The position numbers and the translations under genes are program-made. Positions 28,520-57,226 of a stretch of DNA of 64,000 nucleotides are shown piece by piece. Within the stretch, counting starts at the first letter, position 1, and every line of letters begins with the position of its first letter. The notes under the pieces are model-generated. The model worked only from the letters and a program-made list of their open reading frames with translations, was not told the DNA's origin and ran no database searches. Origin of the DNA: a virus; IMG/VR virus record IMGVR_UViG_3300034050_000451, positions 124,001 through 188,000 of that record. One strand, written 5' to 3'.

Positions 28520-28751
28520 TTGCGTTCTTTATTATTTTATGTTGTTGTTCTATCATGTGATTGAGGAATACCTCAACCGCTTGTTCTCTACTCCACTTCT
28601 TAGGATATACCAACCTATTACCCATTGGTATATACTCTTTTTTAATAAGCCCACTTCCTTTCGGTTCTTCCAATAGAAACCACTCACCATCTACCTCTTT
28701 GAGATAGAGTAGGTTTTGTTGTTCTCTATTATTAGCTACCTGCTCTCCCAT
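28458..28751 (-). CDS. Unknown protein downstream of tandem RNA element
   Basis: 97 residues from the ATG at 28751 (MGEQVANNREQQ), 16 bp after the second tRNA-shaped RNA element. The longer frame would start inside that element and is rejected. Contains EVDGEWFLLEEPKGSGL. If the RNA element is regulatory, this is its first target. Confidence 0.55.
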   Translation of the reverse strand: MGEQVANNREQQNLLYLKEVDGEWFLLEEPKGSGLIKKEYIPMGNRLVYPKKWSREQAVEVFLNHMIEQQHKIIKNANEWIRIAEQLGLGEHIRKSR

Positions 28752-28767
28752 ATTCACTTTTATTCGA

Positions 28768-28838
28768 GCGGAGAGTTGGAGCCGCCCCAACACCTTCTAC
28801 CTGGTAGGTAGATGTCTTACTCTCAAGACCTCCTCCGC
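28768..28838 (-). ncRNA. tRNA-shaped structured RNA element, copy A
   Basis: 71 nt on the minus strand. 7-bp closing stem (GCGGAGG/TCTCCGC), 2-nt linker, 5-bp arm GTCTT/AAGAC, 1 nt, 5-bp arm with 7-nt loop CTACCAG, 4 nt, 5-bp arm GTTGG/CCAAC with 7-nt loop GGCGGCT. This is tRNA cloverleaf geometry, but the third loop is not a T-loop and the first lacks GG. Same geometry as copy B with compensating stem changes. The ATG of 28458-28751 follows 16 bp later. Confidence 0.75.
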
Positions 28839-28938
28839 AATTAATAGAACGATATCCGGCTTTAGTATCCCACTGCCTTATTGCAGTAGTATTCACACAT
28901 TCGGTTTTATTAGATGTTGGCTTCAACCATTCTTTTGA

Positions 28939-29009
28939 GCGGAGAGATGAAACCGCCTCACCTCCTCCATATTGGTAATATGGCGACTTTCTCTTAAGTC
29001 TTTCTCCGC
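28939..29009 (-). ncRNA. tRNA-shaped structured RNA element, copy B
   Basis: 71 nt, same partition as copy A: GCGGAGA/TCTCCGC, AA, GACTT/AAGTC, G, CCATA-TTACCAA-TATGG, AGGA, GGTGA-GGCGGTT-TCATC. Loops are nearly identical to copy A while the stems differ with base pairing kept, which argues strongly for a functional fold. Confidence 0.75.
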
Positions 29010-29055
29010 AAATATCTTAGTAACGTTAGAGTTCTGTCTCAATCACATCACTATG

Positions 29056-29086
29056 TAAAGATACGAAATTTAATCGATATATCCTA
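29056..29086 (-). promoter_or_regulatory. Host-type promoter (weak -33)
   Basis: TATCTTTA with TAG at the -33 position, spacing 20; would transcribe both tRNA-shaped elements. Confidence 0.6.
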
Positions 29087-35450: not shown

Positions 35451-35581
35451 TCTATTGGTTCTTTACATTGTGGACATACAGTTGGTGTTTTTGTATAGAA
35501 TACGTTACCGCATTTCTTACAAACTTTCATTTCATCATCACGCCATTCCAAATCTGGGTATCCTATATCTGAATTATTCAT
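35447..35581 (-). CDS. Small zinc-ribbon protein
   Basis: 44 residues with two CxxC pairs (CKKCGN and CPQCKE), a zinc ribbon. Overlaps hemA by 8 bp and the glycosyltransferase by 4 bp. Unknown role. Confidence 0.6.
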   Translation of the reverse strand: MNNSDIGYPDLEWRDDEMKVCKKCGNVFYTKTPTVCPQCKEPIE

Positions 35582-36587
35582 TGTTAATAATATACTTTTT
35601 CACAAATTCAACCCCATTGTTGATTTGTAGTTCAAATTTATCCAATCTTACCTTCATTATATCCTTAGCTTTTGGTATCTCACCTTGCCTCATTTTCAAA
35701 GTTGCATCCTTTACCTTAGATAATCCATCCACATCAATCAGTTTTATATTCGATTGAGTTCCAATCAGCGGGTCCACATTTTGTGGTACTGATAAATCGA
35801 TTATAACTTTGGTACCTTCCACATCATTAAAATTTATGATATGATAGTCCGCATTGGTTGCTACTATAATGATATCAGCCAATTTAATATACCTTTGGAG
35901 GCTTGAATATCTATCACTTTTTACATCCAATTGTTTTGCTATCTTATCTGATAACGATTCAGTTCGATTCAATAACGTAATTTCGTTGGTATCCAATTCC
36001 GTAATGATATTTCTCATTGTGGCTCTACCCATCTTACCAGCACCAATTACCAAAATCGTTTTGTTCTGAATATCGGTTACATTTTCCTTAATATATTCAA
36101 CAGCTGCGTTTGATACTGATACTGAACCCTCTGATATTTTAGTTTCTGAACGTATTGTTTTAGCTATCGATTGTGCAAAGTTGGTTATCTTTTCAAAATA
36201 CCCACCCAACTTAGCTGAAATACCTGCCATTCTAAGTGCATCCTTAATCTGACCAGCCACTTCATAATCACCCAATAACTGAGAGTCCATTCCAGATGCA
36301 ACTTCTACTAAATGTTCAAAACATTCCCTATCATTAATGTAATATGCTTCTCTTTTGAATAGTTCCATATCACCATCACCTACCAAAAGTTTCAAAAGTT
36401 CATCCTCTGGTTGGTCAAATGAATAGATTTCAGTTCTATTACAAGTTGAAATGATAAAAAAATGAAATAATCCGCTATTAGAATACCTTTCTAAAATAGC
36501 AGATTCAGTTAGTGCAAATTTACTTCTTACAGATAACTCAGTTTTTTTATAACTAATACCAACACAATTTAGTGGTTTAAATATCAT
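35574..36587 (-). CDS. hemA: Glutamyl-tRNA reductase
   Basis: 337 residues. ISTCNRTEIYS carries the catalytic Cys at residue 49; SGMDSQLLGDYEVAGQIK is the family block around the conserved Gly-Glu region (here Asp-Tyr-Glu); VIGAGKMGRATMRN is the NADPH site. GluTR reduces glutamate on tRNA(Glu) to glutamate-1-semialdehyde for heme and tetrapyrrole synthesis. Bacterial enzymes are about 415 residues; here the C-terminal dimerisation part is shortened. A phage copy is very unusual. The phage also encodes tRNA-Glu(UUC). Confidence 0.9.
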   Translation of the reverse strand: MIFKPLNCVGISYKKTELSVRSKFALTESAILERYSNSGLFHFFIISTCNRTEIYSFDQPEDELLKLLVGDGDMELFKREAYYINDRECFEHLVEVASGMDSQLLGDYEVAGQIKDALRMAGISAKLGGYFEKITNFAQSIAKTIRSETKISEGSVSVSNAAVEYIKENVTDIQNKTILVIGAGKMGRATMRNIITELDTNEITLLNRTESLSDKIAKQLDVKSDRYSSLQRYIKLADIIIVATNADYHIINFNDVEGTKVIIDLSVPQNVDPLIGTQSNIKLIDVDGLSKVKDATLKMRQGEIPKAKDIMKVRLDKFELQINNGVEFVKKYIINNE

Positions 36588-36981: not shown

Positions 36982-38055
36982 TTATAGTAAGTGAGGTTTG
37001 CCTTCAGTTAATCCGGCGTTAGTTACTTGAACCCATTTTGGGCTGAATTCAGATATTGAATTTGCACCACCATAAGATAGTGCCGATTTTACTCCATCCA
37101 ATAATCCATTTATTACATATTTTACTCCACCTTTATAAGGTATAATAGTTGATTCACCTTCTACGTTTCTAGCTGCCTGTCCATGTGATACCTTAGTTTC
37201 TAATGATGCTGAACCTCTATAACGTTTATACAATCCGTTTCCTTTTTCAATAATTTGACCGGGTGATTCATCAGTTCCAGCAATTAGTGAACCAATCATA
37301 ACACAATCTGCTCCAACCGCTAACGCTTTAGCAATATCACCACTTCCTCTAATTCCACCATCAGCCATAATTGGTACATTTGATATCGTAGCGATATCCT
37401 CAATACAACTTACATTTGGTACACCAAACCCAGTTTTGATTCGAGTAGTACAAAGTGAACCTCCACCAATTCCAACTCTCAATCCATCTGCCCCAGCTGA
37501 TTCTAATGCTACAGCTGCCTCAGCAGTTGCGATATTACCCGCAATGATATCCACCTTTTCAAATAGTGGATTTTGTTTACACCATACAATCATATCGATT
37601 ACATTTTGGTGATGTCCATGCGCTACATCGATAACCAAAATATTGGCACCAGCTTCTACCAATTTAGTAGCTCTTACCTTATCTTCTCCCTGAACACCAA
37701 TTGCAGCCATAATTGGAATTTGTTTAATTTCAGCATGCCAATCATCATACATAATTCCCCAATCTTCATATGGACCACCAAACCCATCACCATAGATTTT
37801 ATAGCTTAACATTTTAATTTGTTTAGCTTGCTCTTCAATTGACATAAATCGGTGAATACATCCAACACCTCCCATTAGAAACATTTTGAATGCCATATCT
37901 AATTCACACACCGTATCCATTGGGGATGCTACTAATGGATTCATTAATCCATATCGTCTACTTACCAATGTATTTAGATTAATGTTTTGGCGGGAGTTTA
38001 CGTTTGAATACGCTGGTACCAATTGGATATCATCGTATGTAAGTGATTGTTTCAT
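36982..38055 (-). CDS. IMP dehydrogenase/GMP reductase family protein
   Basis: 357 residues, TIM barrel without the CBS pair of full IMPDH. LTYDDIQLVPAYSNV, NPLVASPMDTV, and the catalytic loop GGGSLCTTR with its Cys are present, as is MADGGIRGSGDIAKAL. The C-terminal NVEGESTIIPYKG block is closer to GMP reductase than to IMPDH. It would balance guanine and adenine nucleotide pools. Which reaction it performs is open. Confidence 0.85.
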   Translation of the reverse strand: MKQSLTYDDIQLVPAYSNVNSRQNINLNTLVSRRYGLMNPLVASPMDTVCELDMAFKMFLMGGVGCIHRFMSIEEQAKQIKMLSYKIYGDGFGGPYEDWGIMYDDWHAEIKQIPIMAAIGVQGEDKVRATKLVEAGANILVIDVAHGHHQNVIDMIVWCKQNPLFEKVDIIAGNIATAEAAVALESAGADGLRVGIGGGSLCTTRIKTGFGVPNVSCIEDIATISNVPIMADGGIRGSGDIAKALAVGADCVMIGSLIAGTDESPGQIIEKGNGLYKRYRGSASLETKVSHGQAARNVEGESTIIPYKGGVKYVINGLLDGVKSALSYGGANSISEFSPKWVQVTNAGLTEGKPHLL

Positions 38056-38297: not shown

Positions 38298-38328
38298 CAA
38301 ATATACGAAAAATTATCGATATCTACAA
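38298..38328 (-). promoter_or_regulatory. Host-type promoter for hemA/IMPDH operon
   Basis: TTG-N20-TATATTTG; leader nearly identical to those at 62773 and 63424. Confidence 0.85.
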
Positions 38329-40035
38329 GCTTTTCGATAAAATTTCTTCAACAATTTGAATATCTTCGGGATAATCAACTGCATGGGATTGGTTATCTAA
38401 CATAACCATTTTAATTTTATGCCCCATCTCTAAAAATCTAATGATTTCAATATCCTCATCATATTCTAATGGAGTTTTTTTACCAAAACTACTAAATTCT
38501 TTAAGGTGCTCTCTATTAAATGCGTATATACATACCTGCTTTTTGGGATGGTTACCATTACCTGTTTTGGTTCCGGGTATTGGATTCCTAGACATATAGA
38601 TTAACTCATCATTTAAATTGGTAATTACTTTTGGTATTTTCTTATCCTCTACATTTTCATGTTTGTTTAAATAAGACATACAATTTACAATATGGTTTGG
38701 ATATTTCAACTTAGCTTGAATTACCTTATCAATATCAGTTGGGTCCAATAATGGTTCATCACCTTGGATATTTATAATAATATCAGCATCAATTTCCATT
38801 GTTGCTTCAGCAACTCTATCAGTTCCAGTTAAACAAGAATCTGAAGTTAATATTACATTATATCCATAGCTGTTAACTAAATCTACAATTTCTTCATTTT
38901 CAGTTGCTATATACACATTTTCAATTCCAACTGAATTCTTAGCTATTTCAGCAACCCAAATAATCATTTCTTTATTTTGGATTTTTGCTAATGGTTTTCC
39001 TGGGAATCTTGAAGATTTGTATCTTGCTGGAATAACAACTGCTATTTTTGGTTTTAATGTTTTTTCAATCTTTGAATAATCGTAAGTTTCTGAATTTTCA
39101 ATATCCAATAAAATATTCTCTATTCTATTTGGATTTAAAAATGAAGATTGTAATGTTTGTGGATATAATGGATGAATGTGCTTCATTCCACTTATCATAT
39201 AATTGTGAGTAAATCCCCAATTGTGAGTTATATGTAATGGAATCATCCAATCCGTTAAAACTTTATGAAGTGGTGATGAATTATATAATTTGAATTTGTA
39301 TTGCAAATATGTAACTAATTGTTCGGTCTTTACGTTTCCAACACCCCTACCCATTCCTAATAATGTACCATCCAACCACACTACACCTTCCTCTAAAGCA
39401 GATATACAATTAGCGAATGCTAATCCAATGTTATCATGTGTATGAATACCAATATCACATCCAAATTCTTTAAAAATTTTAACAATTTCTTTTACTTTAC
39501 TTGGTTCAACATTACCATATGAATCAGCAAAATATAATGCTATTGGATTAACATTTACTAATTTACTAAAATCTCGCATTTCATCATCCGATAACATAGA
39601 AATACTCATCAAATTTATCATCAAATCATATCCTTTATTTTTTATATGATTTGCAATTCCAATTGAGTGGGTTATTTCAGAATGTTTTATTGCCAATCTA
39701 CAAATTGAAAATGGTGAATCGGATTTTTGATGAATAATATTATCAATCAATGCAAAATCAATAGAATCTCCTTTAATAAAATCTTTAGCATCAATCATAA
39801 ATGCTAATTTAGAATTTAGTGGTAATCTATATTCTAATATTTCCCAAATAAATCTATCATTACATTTTCTAAATTGCCCACCTTTTAGTGGTGATTTATA
39901 ACCAATCTCAATAACATCCACACCAGACGTATCCAATGAAAATACTAAATCTTTAACCATTTTTGGTTCAAAATTCCAATTGGTATAGTATCCACCATCT
40001 CTTAAAGTACAATCTAAAATTTTAACCTTTTTCAT
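38323..40035 (-). CDS. Fusion: DRE-TIM aldolase plus KdsB-type CMP-sugar synthetase
   Basis: 570 residues in two parts. Residues 1 to about 310 open with KILDCTLRDGGYYTNW, the DRE-TIM metallolyase/aldolase signature, with FADSYGN and GIHTHDNIGLA metal motifs. Residues about 335-570 start IAVVIPARYKSSRFPGKPLA and include NIQGDEPLLD, as in CMP-Kdo synthetase. The N-part would make or break a C-C bond in a keto-sugar; the C-part would activate it as CMP-sugar. One continuous frame, no frameshift. The next genes encode a HAD phosphatase and a GT29-like transferase. Confidence 0.85.
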   Translation of the reverse strand: MKKVKILDCTLRDGGYYTNWNFEPKMVKDLVFSLDTSGVDVIEIGYKSPLKGGQFRKCNDRFIWEILEYRLPLNSKLAFMIDAKDFIKGDSIDFALIDNIIHQKSDSPFSICRLAIKHSEITHSIGIANHIKNKGYDLMINLMSISMLSDDEMRDFSKLVNVNPIALYFADSYGNVEPSKVKEIVKIFKEFGCDIGIHTHDNIGLAFANCISALEEGVVWLDGTLLGMGRGVGNVKTEQLVTYLQYKFKLYNSSPLHKVLTDWMIPLHITHNWGFTHNYMISGMKHIHPLYPQTLQSSFLNPNRIENILLDIENSETYDYSKIEKTLKPKIAVVIPARYKSSRFPGKPLAKIQNKEMIIWVAEIAKNSVGIENVYIATENEEIVDLVNSYGYNVILTSDSCLTGTDRVAEATMEIDADIIINIQGDEPLLDPTDIDKVIQAKLKYPNHIVNCMSYLNKHENVEDKKIPKVITNLNDELIYMSRNPIPGTKTGNGNHPKKQVCIYAFNREHLKEFSSFGKKTPLEYDEDIEIIRFLEMGHKIKMVMLDNQSHAVDYPEDIQIVEEILSKSL

Positions 40036-50604: not shown

Positions 50605-51750
50605 TTAGTGAGAATCTCCCACATCATTTTTCTCTCCATAAATAAGGTAGTCAGGGTTTATAACCTTAGCTACTTTATTACGTTCACCTGTATGGTATTT
50701 GATTACAATTCCTTCATGTGGAACCTTAGTACCTTCAATCATATTTTTAAATACGAATTTATCTTGCACCTCTTGCGACCAATTTCCAAAATGTAATATT
50801 TCAACATAAGGTAATTGTAATATATCTTTAATCATCAATTTAGAATTGATAGGACTTAAATACTCACCATTCTCCTTTACATCGAATCCTACAAACTCCA
50901 TTTCTGTCAAACCATAATCATAGTTCTTTTGAATTCCGGCCCCATAGATTTCTCCATAGATTGTGATTCCATCTCCAATTTCTGGTTCCATTGAATTACT
51001 TTTAACGTATTCCCATAACCTCTTTTTGATTTCATATTTATCCGCAATTTGGTACCAAACATTGGTATCATAGAAACCTTGAGAATCCGAACCCTTTTCT
51101 ACATTATGTGAACCAACTACAAATTCATACCCAATCCACTTATCAGCAAACCCAATGAACTTCTTAACCTTATCCCAAAATGATAATTTAAGTTTCTTAA
51201 CAATACCATATCTAGCATTAGTACCATGTATCTTACGAGTAATTTCAACGGTATCTTCTTCAGTAAACATTCCATCCACATTTTTTAGGTTTGGGAATTT
51301 ATAGTAGATGTGGAAGTTTGGATTGTCTTGGTATCTAATCTTTCTACCTCCGGCTAATTGGATTTGTTTAACTGGTGGTTCGTATTTAGTAATTCCTAAG
51401 AATTCCATACAATCATCACCTTCGCCTAAATCAAAATCACCCATAGTAACTCTACCACGTAGGTATTTCATTGGGATAATTAAACATTCAGAATAAACAC
51501 CTCTTAATTTTACAGTCCTAACTCTATTACCTTTACGAAGATAGTTAGTTACACCCATCTCTTCAGAAAGTTCTTCAGGTATAACCGCATCAGTTGTAGC
51601 AATGATTGTTTCATCACCAATAGTAAACTCTCCCTTCTTAGTGATTGCATTCCAACCACCAGCAACTACCAATTCGATGTTATCAGCACCCTCAATTGGA
51701 TTTACTTCTTTGATTTTTGCTATGTAGCAAACTGAATTTTCGTTTTTCAT
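50605..51750 (-). CDS. RNA ligase
   Basis: 381 residues. The nucleotidyltransferase core carries the lysine motif I as ITRKIHGTNARYG, then YGEIYG (motif IIIa), HEGIVIKYH (motif IV) and KVINPDYL (motif V with Lys). An additional about 150-residue N-terminal domain (EVNPIEGADNIELVVAGGW) resembles that of the DRA2417/Rnl5-like group. It would seal RNA nicks, for example in cleaved tRNA anticodon loops. A terminator follows. Confidence 0.85.
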   Translation of the reverse strand: MKNENSVCYIAKIKEVNPIEGADNIELVVAGGWNAITKKGEFTIGDETIIATTDAVIPEELSEEMGVTNYLRKGNRVRTVKLRGVYSECLIIPMKYLRGRVTMGDFDLGEGDDCMEFLGITKYEPPVKQIQLAGGRKIRYQDNPNFHIYYKFPNLKNVDGMFTEEDTVEITRKIHGTNARYGIVKKLKLSFWDKVKKFIGFADKWIGYEFVVGSHNVEKGSDSQGFYDTNVWYQIADKYEIKKRLWEYVKSNSMEPEIGDGITIYGEIYGAGIQKNYDYGLTEMEFVGFDVKENGEYLSPINSKLMIKDILQLPYVEILHFGNWSQEVQDKFVFKNMIEGTKVPHEGIVIKYHTGERNKVAKVINPDYLIYGEKNDVGDSH

Positions 51751-56129: not shown

Positions 56130-56271
56130 ATATAAATGTGAGCCAAACTTATGTACTTAGTGGGTGTACTCCGTTTATACTACTCTCACATTCAAATCAG
56201 TAGTGTGATGTTAATGGTTGAAAGATATTTACCTTCCTTTCGGCCTACCATCGTGGCCCATGCGTTTGTGG

Positions 56272-56344
56272 AGCGAATAGCAGGAATCGAACCTGCATCT
56301 CCAACTTGGAAGGATGGAGTAATAAGCCATTATACGATATTCGC
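56272..56344 (-). tRNA. tRNA-Gly(UCC)
   Basis: 73 nt. Anticodon loop CTTCCAA; one U-U mismatch in the anticodon stem. Its 5' end borders the large structured RNA, so both are probably cut from one transcript. Confidence 0.9.
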
Positions 56345-57226
56345 TTATATACGATGAGAATACTCGTTTTAATGAACCAGCTTTATAAGGGTTATTGGTT
56401 GCCTTAATTTCCACTTCCTTTTGAGAAGTACCAATTCAATGTGGGTAAGTAATGTCCTACCACTCATAAAGTTACAAACTACTCTCTTTGTAGTCCACCT
56501 CTTCGAATCTGCCGACCCGATTAACACCTCGCGATGCTAGAAGTTTTTCGAAAGAATCACATTTCCCTTGAGAGGATTTGTGGCAGGGAACAGCTCCCTA
56601 CTATGTACACACCTTTCGTCTGCAACTGGTAACCTCTTTCTCTAGTTTGTTTTTTGATTTTGCGTCAATAGGCAAATTGAGTTTTGGTTTGTAGATAAAT
56701 TCAAGTAGTGGATTACCACTAGCTCCGCCCCATTTTGAAGAACGGAATACTATACTACTCGATACGTTATCTCTAACGTCATACTTTAAGATTACTTCAG
56801 TACCCACTCTTTGGTGAGAGGTAGGTAAGGATGATAACAACACCACTTGTACTTCATCATACCTTTCGGTTTTAAGTAACCTTTAATATTGAATCACGCA
56901 ATGATAAGGAGAGATTAAGTCCTCACTTCTTGCATTAATTCTATGGGTTATTTTTATTGGTGTTCCCACCTCAACTGAAGTATCTACAATACCCCAGTCA
57001 TCATTCCATTTCGCTACGGAGTTACCCTCACTACATTCAGGAACAATGATATCCCACTTGCCTACTCAAGCTCCATCCGAAGATGAAACCGCAAACCCCT
57101 CTAAACCAAAGAGATTCACTTTATCCTACTTTCGTAGTTTATTTAACGACCATAGGCGGCCGTTATACACTATGTAGAACAAGTCTACTATGTGCAATAT
57201 TTTCAATACTTTCAAAGAACTAATTT
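56345..57226 (-). ncRNA. Large structured RNA between tRNA genes (candidate GOLLD/ROOL class)
   Basis: About 880 nt without a convincing gene, transcribed from the promoter at 57234-57264. It holds many perfect short hairpins: 57174-57188, 57126-57137 (RNA loop GAAA), 56764-56779, 56706-56721, 56585-56599, 56478-56494 and 56413-56429. Open frames present have no ATG and are interrupted. Size, dense hairpins and location beside tRNA genes in a phage fit the GOLLD and ROOL RNA classes; identity is inferred, not shown. Confidence 0.6.

Follow-up and report, generated by a model that had tools for sequence, protein, structure and literature searches.

A phage family of tRNA-Gly-like RNAs tied to the DNA-modification gene mom, and its candidate role as a glycyl donor

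We describe a family of small phage RNAs that have the cloverleaf geometry of tRNA, carry the complete set of bacterial tRNA-Gly identity elements, and occur together with genes of the Mom family of DNA-modifying enzymes. The family was previously unlisted, and it is new to Rfam 15 and to the searched literature. Each of its members is probably a dedicated, non-translational tRNA-Gly, and Mom, at least in these lineages, would be a glycyl-tRNA:adenine transferase through which the RNA would feed DNA hypermodification.

The window analyzed here is a 64,000-nt stretch of viral DNA that corresponds to bases 124001–188000 of the 270,865-bp virus record G000. Two 71-nt copies of the RNA lie on its minus strand: copy A (28939–29009), which is transcribed first, and copy B (28768–28838), separated by a 100-nt spacer (28839–28938) and repeating with a 171-nt period. 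A preliminary description made from the letters of the DNA had proposed two such copies and their fold, and both were confirmed. From the 5′ side, each copy has a 7-bp closing stem, 2 nt, a 5-bp arm with a 6-nt loop, 1 nt, a 5-bp arm with a 7-nt loop, 4 nt, and a 5-bp arm with a 7-nt loop, followed by the other side of the 7-bp stem. The minimum-free-energy z-scores are –3.1 for copy A and –3.4 for copy B, with equally good folds in 0/200 shuffles. The copies are 68% identical. According to the preliminary description every stem differs between them with pairing kept; the changes are indeed compensated, but the closing stem differs only at its last pair, which is G·U in one copy and A-U in the other. 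The reported absence of the D-loop and T-loop consensus of tRNA was borne out: the D-loops are AAGAGA (copy A) and GAGAGU (copy B), the T-loops GGCGGUU and GGCGGCU, with neither G18G19 nor TTCRANY. The middle loop, in contrast, had been mistaken for a non-tRNA element. It is an anticodon loop of the form Y-U-ACC-A-R (UUACCAA in copy A, CUACCAG in copy B) with the glycine anticodon ACC, and U33 is present in both copies. The earlier description also missed that the acceptor end and U73 match the bacterial tRNA-Gly identity set. The copies are followed by T-C-A-A and T-C-G-A (U73 plus C, then A-A or G-A), much as at the 3′-ends of the real tRNA genes of the same phage.

Neither copy was called by ARAGORN in its default mode or matched by Rfam, and a BLAST search with the region found no relevant match among GenBank phages. 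A snoRNA match that Rfam returned over the region at a permissive threshold was rejected as chance. The metazoan-mitochondrial mode of ARAGORN called both copies tRNA-Gly(acc), with a background of 6 calls per 1000 shuffled copies. Covariance models of the family scored copy A at 96 bits (model R1) and 83.7 bits (R3), and copy B at 97.1 and 78.7 bits, respectively. By eye, the 100-nt spacer resembles the 69-nt spacer of marine jumbo relatives (GAATGGTTRAAG ... TGGGATA ... GCCG). A frame is open over both copies and the spacer (28732–29015, minus strand), with no upstream start codon. Just upstream of copy A, at 29055–29065 on the minus strand, lies CGTATCTTTAC, a possible phage promoter element; with one mismatch allowed the window has 5 occurrences, always on the minus strand, against 1.1 expected.

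Besides these copies, the record encodes 25 ordinary tRNAs, a tmRNA and a GOLLD RNA (RF02032, 257 bits; 56351–56762, minus strand), the latter located between tRNA genes of the cluster that holds the 25 tRNAs and the tmRNA. The phage also has an ordinary tRNA-Gly(UCC) (56269–56344, minus strand) with the acceptor end of the two copies (GCG...CGC-U) and a normal T-loop, UUCGAUU; it is matched by family models R1–R3 at 31–35 bits, the model built from the two copies giving 34 bits. Among the tRNAs of the phage (55964–62124, minus strand) it alone encodes a full CCA, nearly all others having N73-C followed by other bases. Several minus-strand protein genes of the window are also of note. Glutamyl-tRNA reductase HemA (35574–36587; GlutR_N, E 7e-31) is another enzyme that diverts an aminoacyl-tRNA from translation. 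An IMP dehydrogenase/GMP reductase (36982–38055, E 8e-101) and a fusion of an HMGL-like aldolase with a KdsB-like cytidylyltransferase (38323–40035) are unusual metabolic genes for a phage, and an RNA ligase (50605–51750; PF09414, E 2e-14) possibly repairs cleaved tRNAs.

About 75 distinct relatives were found in viral contigs by pattern scans and covariance models; scan matches were filtered by the models or by a pairing test, and relatives were added stepwise. The unrelated 11.7-kb contig L027 yielded a divergent homologue (81.6 bits), and after it six further homologues were added, giving finally 84 member loci. Of the helix cells in an alignment of 65 distinct sequences, 97.5% are paired, compared to 36–47% with partners slid. 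The covariation score of this set is 0.767 (0.07–0.14 when slid), a value reached in 0/500 shuffles, and in 17 of 23 pairs both partners have changed. Acceptor pairs 1 to 4 are invariant in the same set, an invariance partly imposed at the positions that the search pattern fixed (GCGG, A8, G10, AGAG, CCA and GGC). We also assembled a separate set of 41 distinct RNAs by way of similarity between Mom proteins, with a tolerant model; this set does not rest directly on the pattern, and in it, positions 3 and 4 are changeable. Loci L334 and L340 make up a second subclass, whose D-loop is GAAAAA and whose T-loop, UGCAAGU, is near-canonical. The preliminary description, to which no known class came to mind, had named a lack of covarying homologues or an Rfam hit as what would speak against it: the homologues covary, Rfam 15 has no entry matching the family, and the view that no known class applies holds for Rfam 15 and the searched literature. 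Four candidates of the first pattern scan (L001 and L003–L005) proved to be glycine/proline-rich repeats left unscored by the model and were dropped. A pattern scan of genome contigs yielded 7 chance matches and no family member, so the family has no named host; the member contigs are metagenomic and carry no host assignment. In one contig, a freshwater-1 RNA (RF02979; L243, 74–135, minus strand) sits in a tRNA cluster that also contains a family member.

Bacterial glycine identity is set by U73, G1-C72, C2-G71, C35 and C36, and G10-Y25 with G45 is part of the tRNA-Gly consensus (PMC9976931). The five identity elements are present in 75/75 members and 41/41 Mom-found RNAs, making the set expected of a GlyRS substrate complete in the family. 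Within the Mom-found RNAs, G1, C2, G71, C72, U73, C35, C36, G10 and C56 all occur in 41/41, and G45 in 36/41. The anticodons of the 75 members (CCC in 39, UCC in 24, ACC in 12) are all glycine anticodons. Positions associated with decoding behave differently. U33 is present in 42/75 members, absent in 33/75, and found in 16/41 Mom-found RNAs; G18G19 occurs in no member, the D-loop being AAGAGA or GAAAAA; T54, Psi55 and A58 are replaced in nearly all members, positions 54–60 (standard numbering) reading G-G-C-R-G-Y-U in nearly all and UGCAAGU in L334 and L340. Compared with canonical tRNA (RF00005), the family thus has the geometry (7 / D-arm / 5+7 / variable / 5+7 / 7 plus N73, with a 4-nt variable region and a 6-nt D-loop) and lacks the TTCRANY T-loop, the G18G19 D-loop and a constant U33. 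It falls below the Rfam gathering score for RF00005 and draws no default ARAGORN call.

Many of the RNA-bearing phages also have an ordinary tRNA-Gly, and in the marine jumbo relatives a canonical tRNA-Gly(GCC) is located 8 nt from two family RNAs. With the identity set kept, the decoding marks lost and a canonical tRNA-Gly nearby, the RNA looks built for glycine charging and not for decoding. Judging by sequence, it would be charged with glycine; from its structure and its Mom linkage we infer that it may bind EF-Tu weakly and be used by a non-ribosomal transferase. The notion of a tRNA mimic in the preliminary description is borne out by these features. A degenerate tRNA-Gly that still decodes, as mitochondrial tRNAs do, or a tRNA pseudogene in decay, would share the exact tRNA geometry, the glycine anticodons, the 34-bit similarity to the real tRNA-Gly of the phage and the location in tRNA clusters seen in some phages. 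Against them stand the loss of U33 in those 33 members, the conserved alteration of the D- and T-loops, the compensatory changes, which exclude decay, and the normal tRNA-Gly in the same genomes; the Mom linkage would also go unexplained. We regard either as very improbable.

The linkage to Mom was examined in both directions. In L027, the RNA adjoins a Mom-family gene (PF25680, E 6e-34), and the partner protein belongs to this family with E-values down to 1e-53. The record that holds the window has two Mom genes, at record positions 258827–259510 and 260006–260671, about 106 kb from the RNAs; they match PF25680 with 152.5 and 150.7 bits (curated cut-off 27.1). Outside the window species, Mom was present in 7/8 member records first tested, the eighth being a 6-kb scrap, and three further fragments of the window species (40–169 kb) did not include Mom. 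A batch of 50 RNA-bearing records contained Mom in 33 cases, compared to 0/50 control records that match the same patterns by chance (Fisher p 7e-14, with clade members not independent of each other; G008 is in both this batch and the earlier eight). The 17 Mom-less records are fragments of 21–107 kb whose RNAs are jumbo-phage-like, while 7/7 records of at least 160 kb in the batch have two or three Moms. The frequency of Mom among GenBank phage records is about 0.6% (tblastn). A 1:1 relation of RNA copies to Mom genes was ruled out by G003, which has three Moms and one RNA.

For the reverse direction, 80 loci were picked solely by similarity to the Mom of the L196 clade. The RNA is located directly 3′ of the Mom domain and on the same strand in 59/80 of them, which amounts to 59/59 complete loci of the clade (at least 50% identity); in the three in-clade misses the contigs end in or just after mom. 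It was found in 0/18 sister loci of this clade and nearby in only 3/79 loci picked by similarity to the L027 Mom. Eighteen sampled GenBank Mom phages, including Mu and A511, gave no convincing RNA, with one weak 24-bit match in Cassita. On the Mom tree, RNA-bearing proteins fall on several branches, so placed that 6 changes are needed, 5 of them forced. Mitochondrial-mode ARAGORN calls were equally frequent beside Mom and in control flanks (5 and 5), so that by itself this mode carries little weight; both glycine calls beside Mom, at L334 and L340, are R3 matches. We conclude that the RNA nearly always implies Mom, and that the converse fails.

The small phages have the RNA against mom on the same strand. 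In 59/59 main-clade loci the stop codon comes after the RNA, which places the RNA inside the mom open frame, and it lies within the mom frame in five loci of other clades as well. Four loci have the RNA 5′ of mom with the frame open into or through it, and the RNA is in frame with mom in every linked locus examined. A single transcript could therefore yield only one of the two, either full-length Mom or the excised RNA. The inclusion of the RNA in the mom transcript of small phages speaks for a cis-regulatory tRNA mimic, a fold that Mom or GlyRS would bind to tune mom expression in the manner of tRNA-like synthetase leaders. However, the RNA is 3′ of mom in most loci and 5′ in some, flanks it on both sides as identical copies in L334, and stands tens of kilobases off in the window phage and the jumbo relatives, often in tRNA clusters; the fixed 5′-leader position of a thrS- or T-box-type leader is not seen. 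In large phages it is unlinked to mom; 20/34 such loci have a tRNA gene within 1 kb, which in each case shares the strand of the RNA. Both the unlinked copies and the varying placement speak for an RNA that acts in trans. Cis-regulation is accordingly unlikely, and the riboswitch-like leader of the preliminary description is disfavoured by the same distances and placements.

Tight Mom linkage together with the trans arrangement of large phages would suit an uncharged RNA as well, serving as a cofactor, scaffold or inhibitor of Mom that, for example, keeps Mom off host DNA. We hold this to be rather unlikely, as it leaves unexplained why U73, C35, C36, G1-C72 and C2-G71, which sit at two ends of the molecule far from each other, are fixed while U33 drifts. 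The preliminary description had also considered a decoy. Such an RNA would lure host enzymes that cleave tRNA-Gly, or stand in for the cleaved tRNA as a protected substitute, in a counter-defence set with mom; Mom itself is a counter-restriction gene, and the window phage has the RNA ligase at 50605–51750. But variation is seen at positions 32, 33, 34 and 38 of the anticodon loop, which is the usual target, whereas the acceptor end and U73 are fixed, and the neighbour is one particular gene, mom, rather than a varied defence set. A decoy would explain neither the tie to Mom nor the retention of the charging determinants, and we give it very little weight. As a whole, the preliminary interpretation is partly supported.

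Mom of phage Mu converts adenine to N6-(carbamoylmethyl)adenine, a glycinamide. To our knowledge, the donor of the glycinamide group has been unresolved since the modified adenine was described. A 2020 proposal for Mom reportedly involves acetyl-CoA and iron. Glycyl-CoA has been suggested as the acyl donor (PMC7824862). A literature search for Mom with tRNA or glycyl-tRNA, covering mainly open-access journals, gave nothing relevant. The position of the RNA beside mom, with charging marks fixed and decoding marks released, points to a glycyl-tRNA donor, a proposal that can be tested with few purified parts.

From the observed RNA family, its identity elements and its tie to Mom, we infer expression, charging, transfer and rearrangement as follows. 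The RNA would be transcribed and trimmed in tRNA fashion, its CCA being encoded or added, and charged by host GlyRS through G1-C72, C2-G71, U73, C35 and C36. Its altered D- and T-loops and lost U33 may let it avoid elongation factor and ribosome, mark it for selection by Mom, or both. Acting in trans as glycyl donor to the Mom-type enzymes of the phage, it would deliver the glycyl group to Mom, a GNAT-fold acyltransferase, for transfer to adenine N6 in phage DNA. The N6-glycyl adenine could then rearrange: in a Smiles-type shift via a five-membered ring, its free amine would attack C6 and yield exactly the known glycinamide-adenine, which shields DNA from restriction enzymes. Since the RNA is absent from Mu and the other sampled Mom phages, and seldom seen near L027-like Moms, Mom chemistry there would need host tRNA-Gly.

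The L027 Mom, as modelled by AlphaFold (pLDDT 87), has Mu Mom (8bv8) as its best fold match, followed by acyl-CoA GNATs, and no aminoacyl-tRNA transferase is present among the best 50 matches. These fold matches neither favour nor rule against a tRNA donor. The annotated Mu protein has isoleucine at position 124, so its numbering differs from that of the inactive mutant S124A (8bv8).

The closest known counterparts are the non-proteinogenic tRNA-Gly of S. aureus, donors for the pentaglycine bridge, in which positions 18 and 19 are replaced (PMC4052509, PMC9976931). They are likewise withdrawn from translation and hand glycine to a non-ribosomal acyltransferase, as proposed for the phage RNA, which shares their replacement of G18G19. 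They have an otherwise ordinary architecture and serve cell-wall enzymes, while the phage RNA has a short D-loop, an altered T-loop and a lost U33, is phage-encoded and is tied to a DNA-modifying enzyme. The GNAT toxin TacT reads glycyl-tRNA-Gly through U73 and G71 (PMC9976931) and acetylates the glycine on the tRNA; in our proposal, the glycine would be moved from RNA to DNA. Mu Mom and its relatives (PF25680; PDB 8bv8) belong to the same protein family as the partner of the RNA, and an adenine glycinamide is expected as product here too, but no such RNA is present in Mu or in the remaining GenBank Mom phages sampled, and the donors proposed in print are acyl-CoAs. The tRNAs of metazoan mitochondria (the ARAGORN -mt / ARWEN models) resemble the phage family in combining a cloverleaf with non-canonical D- and T-loops; they decode, whereas the phage family drops U33 and is accompanied by canonical tRNA-Gly in the same genome.

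If it is a natural non-decoding tRNA, the RNA may be of use in engineering. If the proposal is true, it would be, as far as we know, the first aminoacyl-RNA used for DNA modification. These phages would then have removed an adaptor of translation from translation to supply the hypermodification of their DNA.
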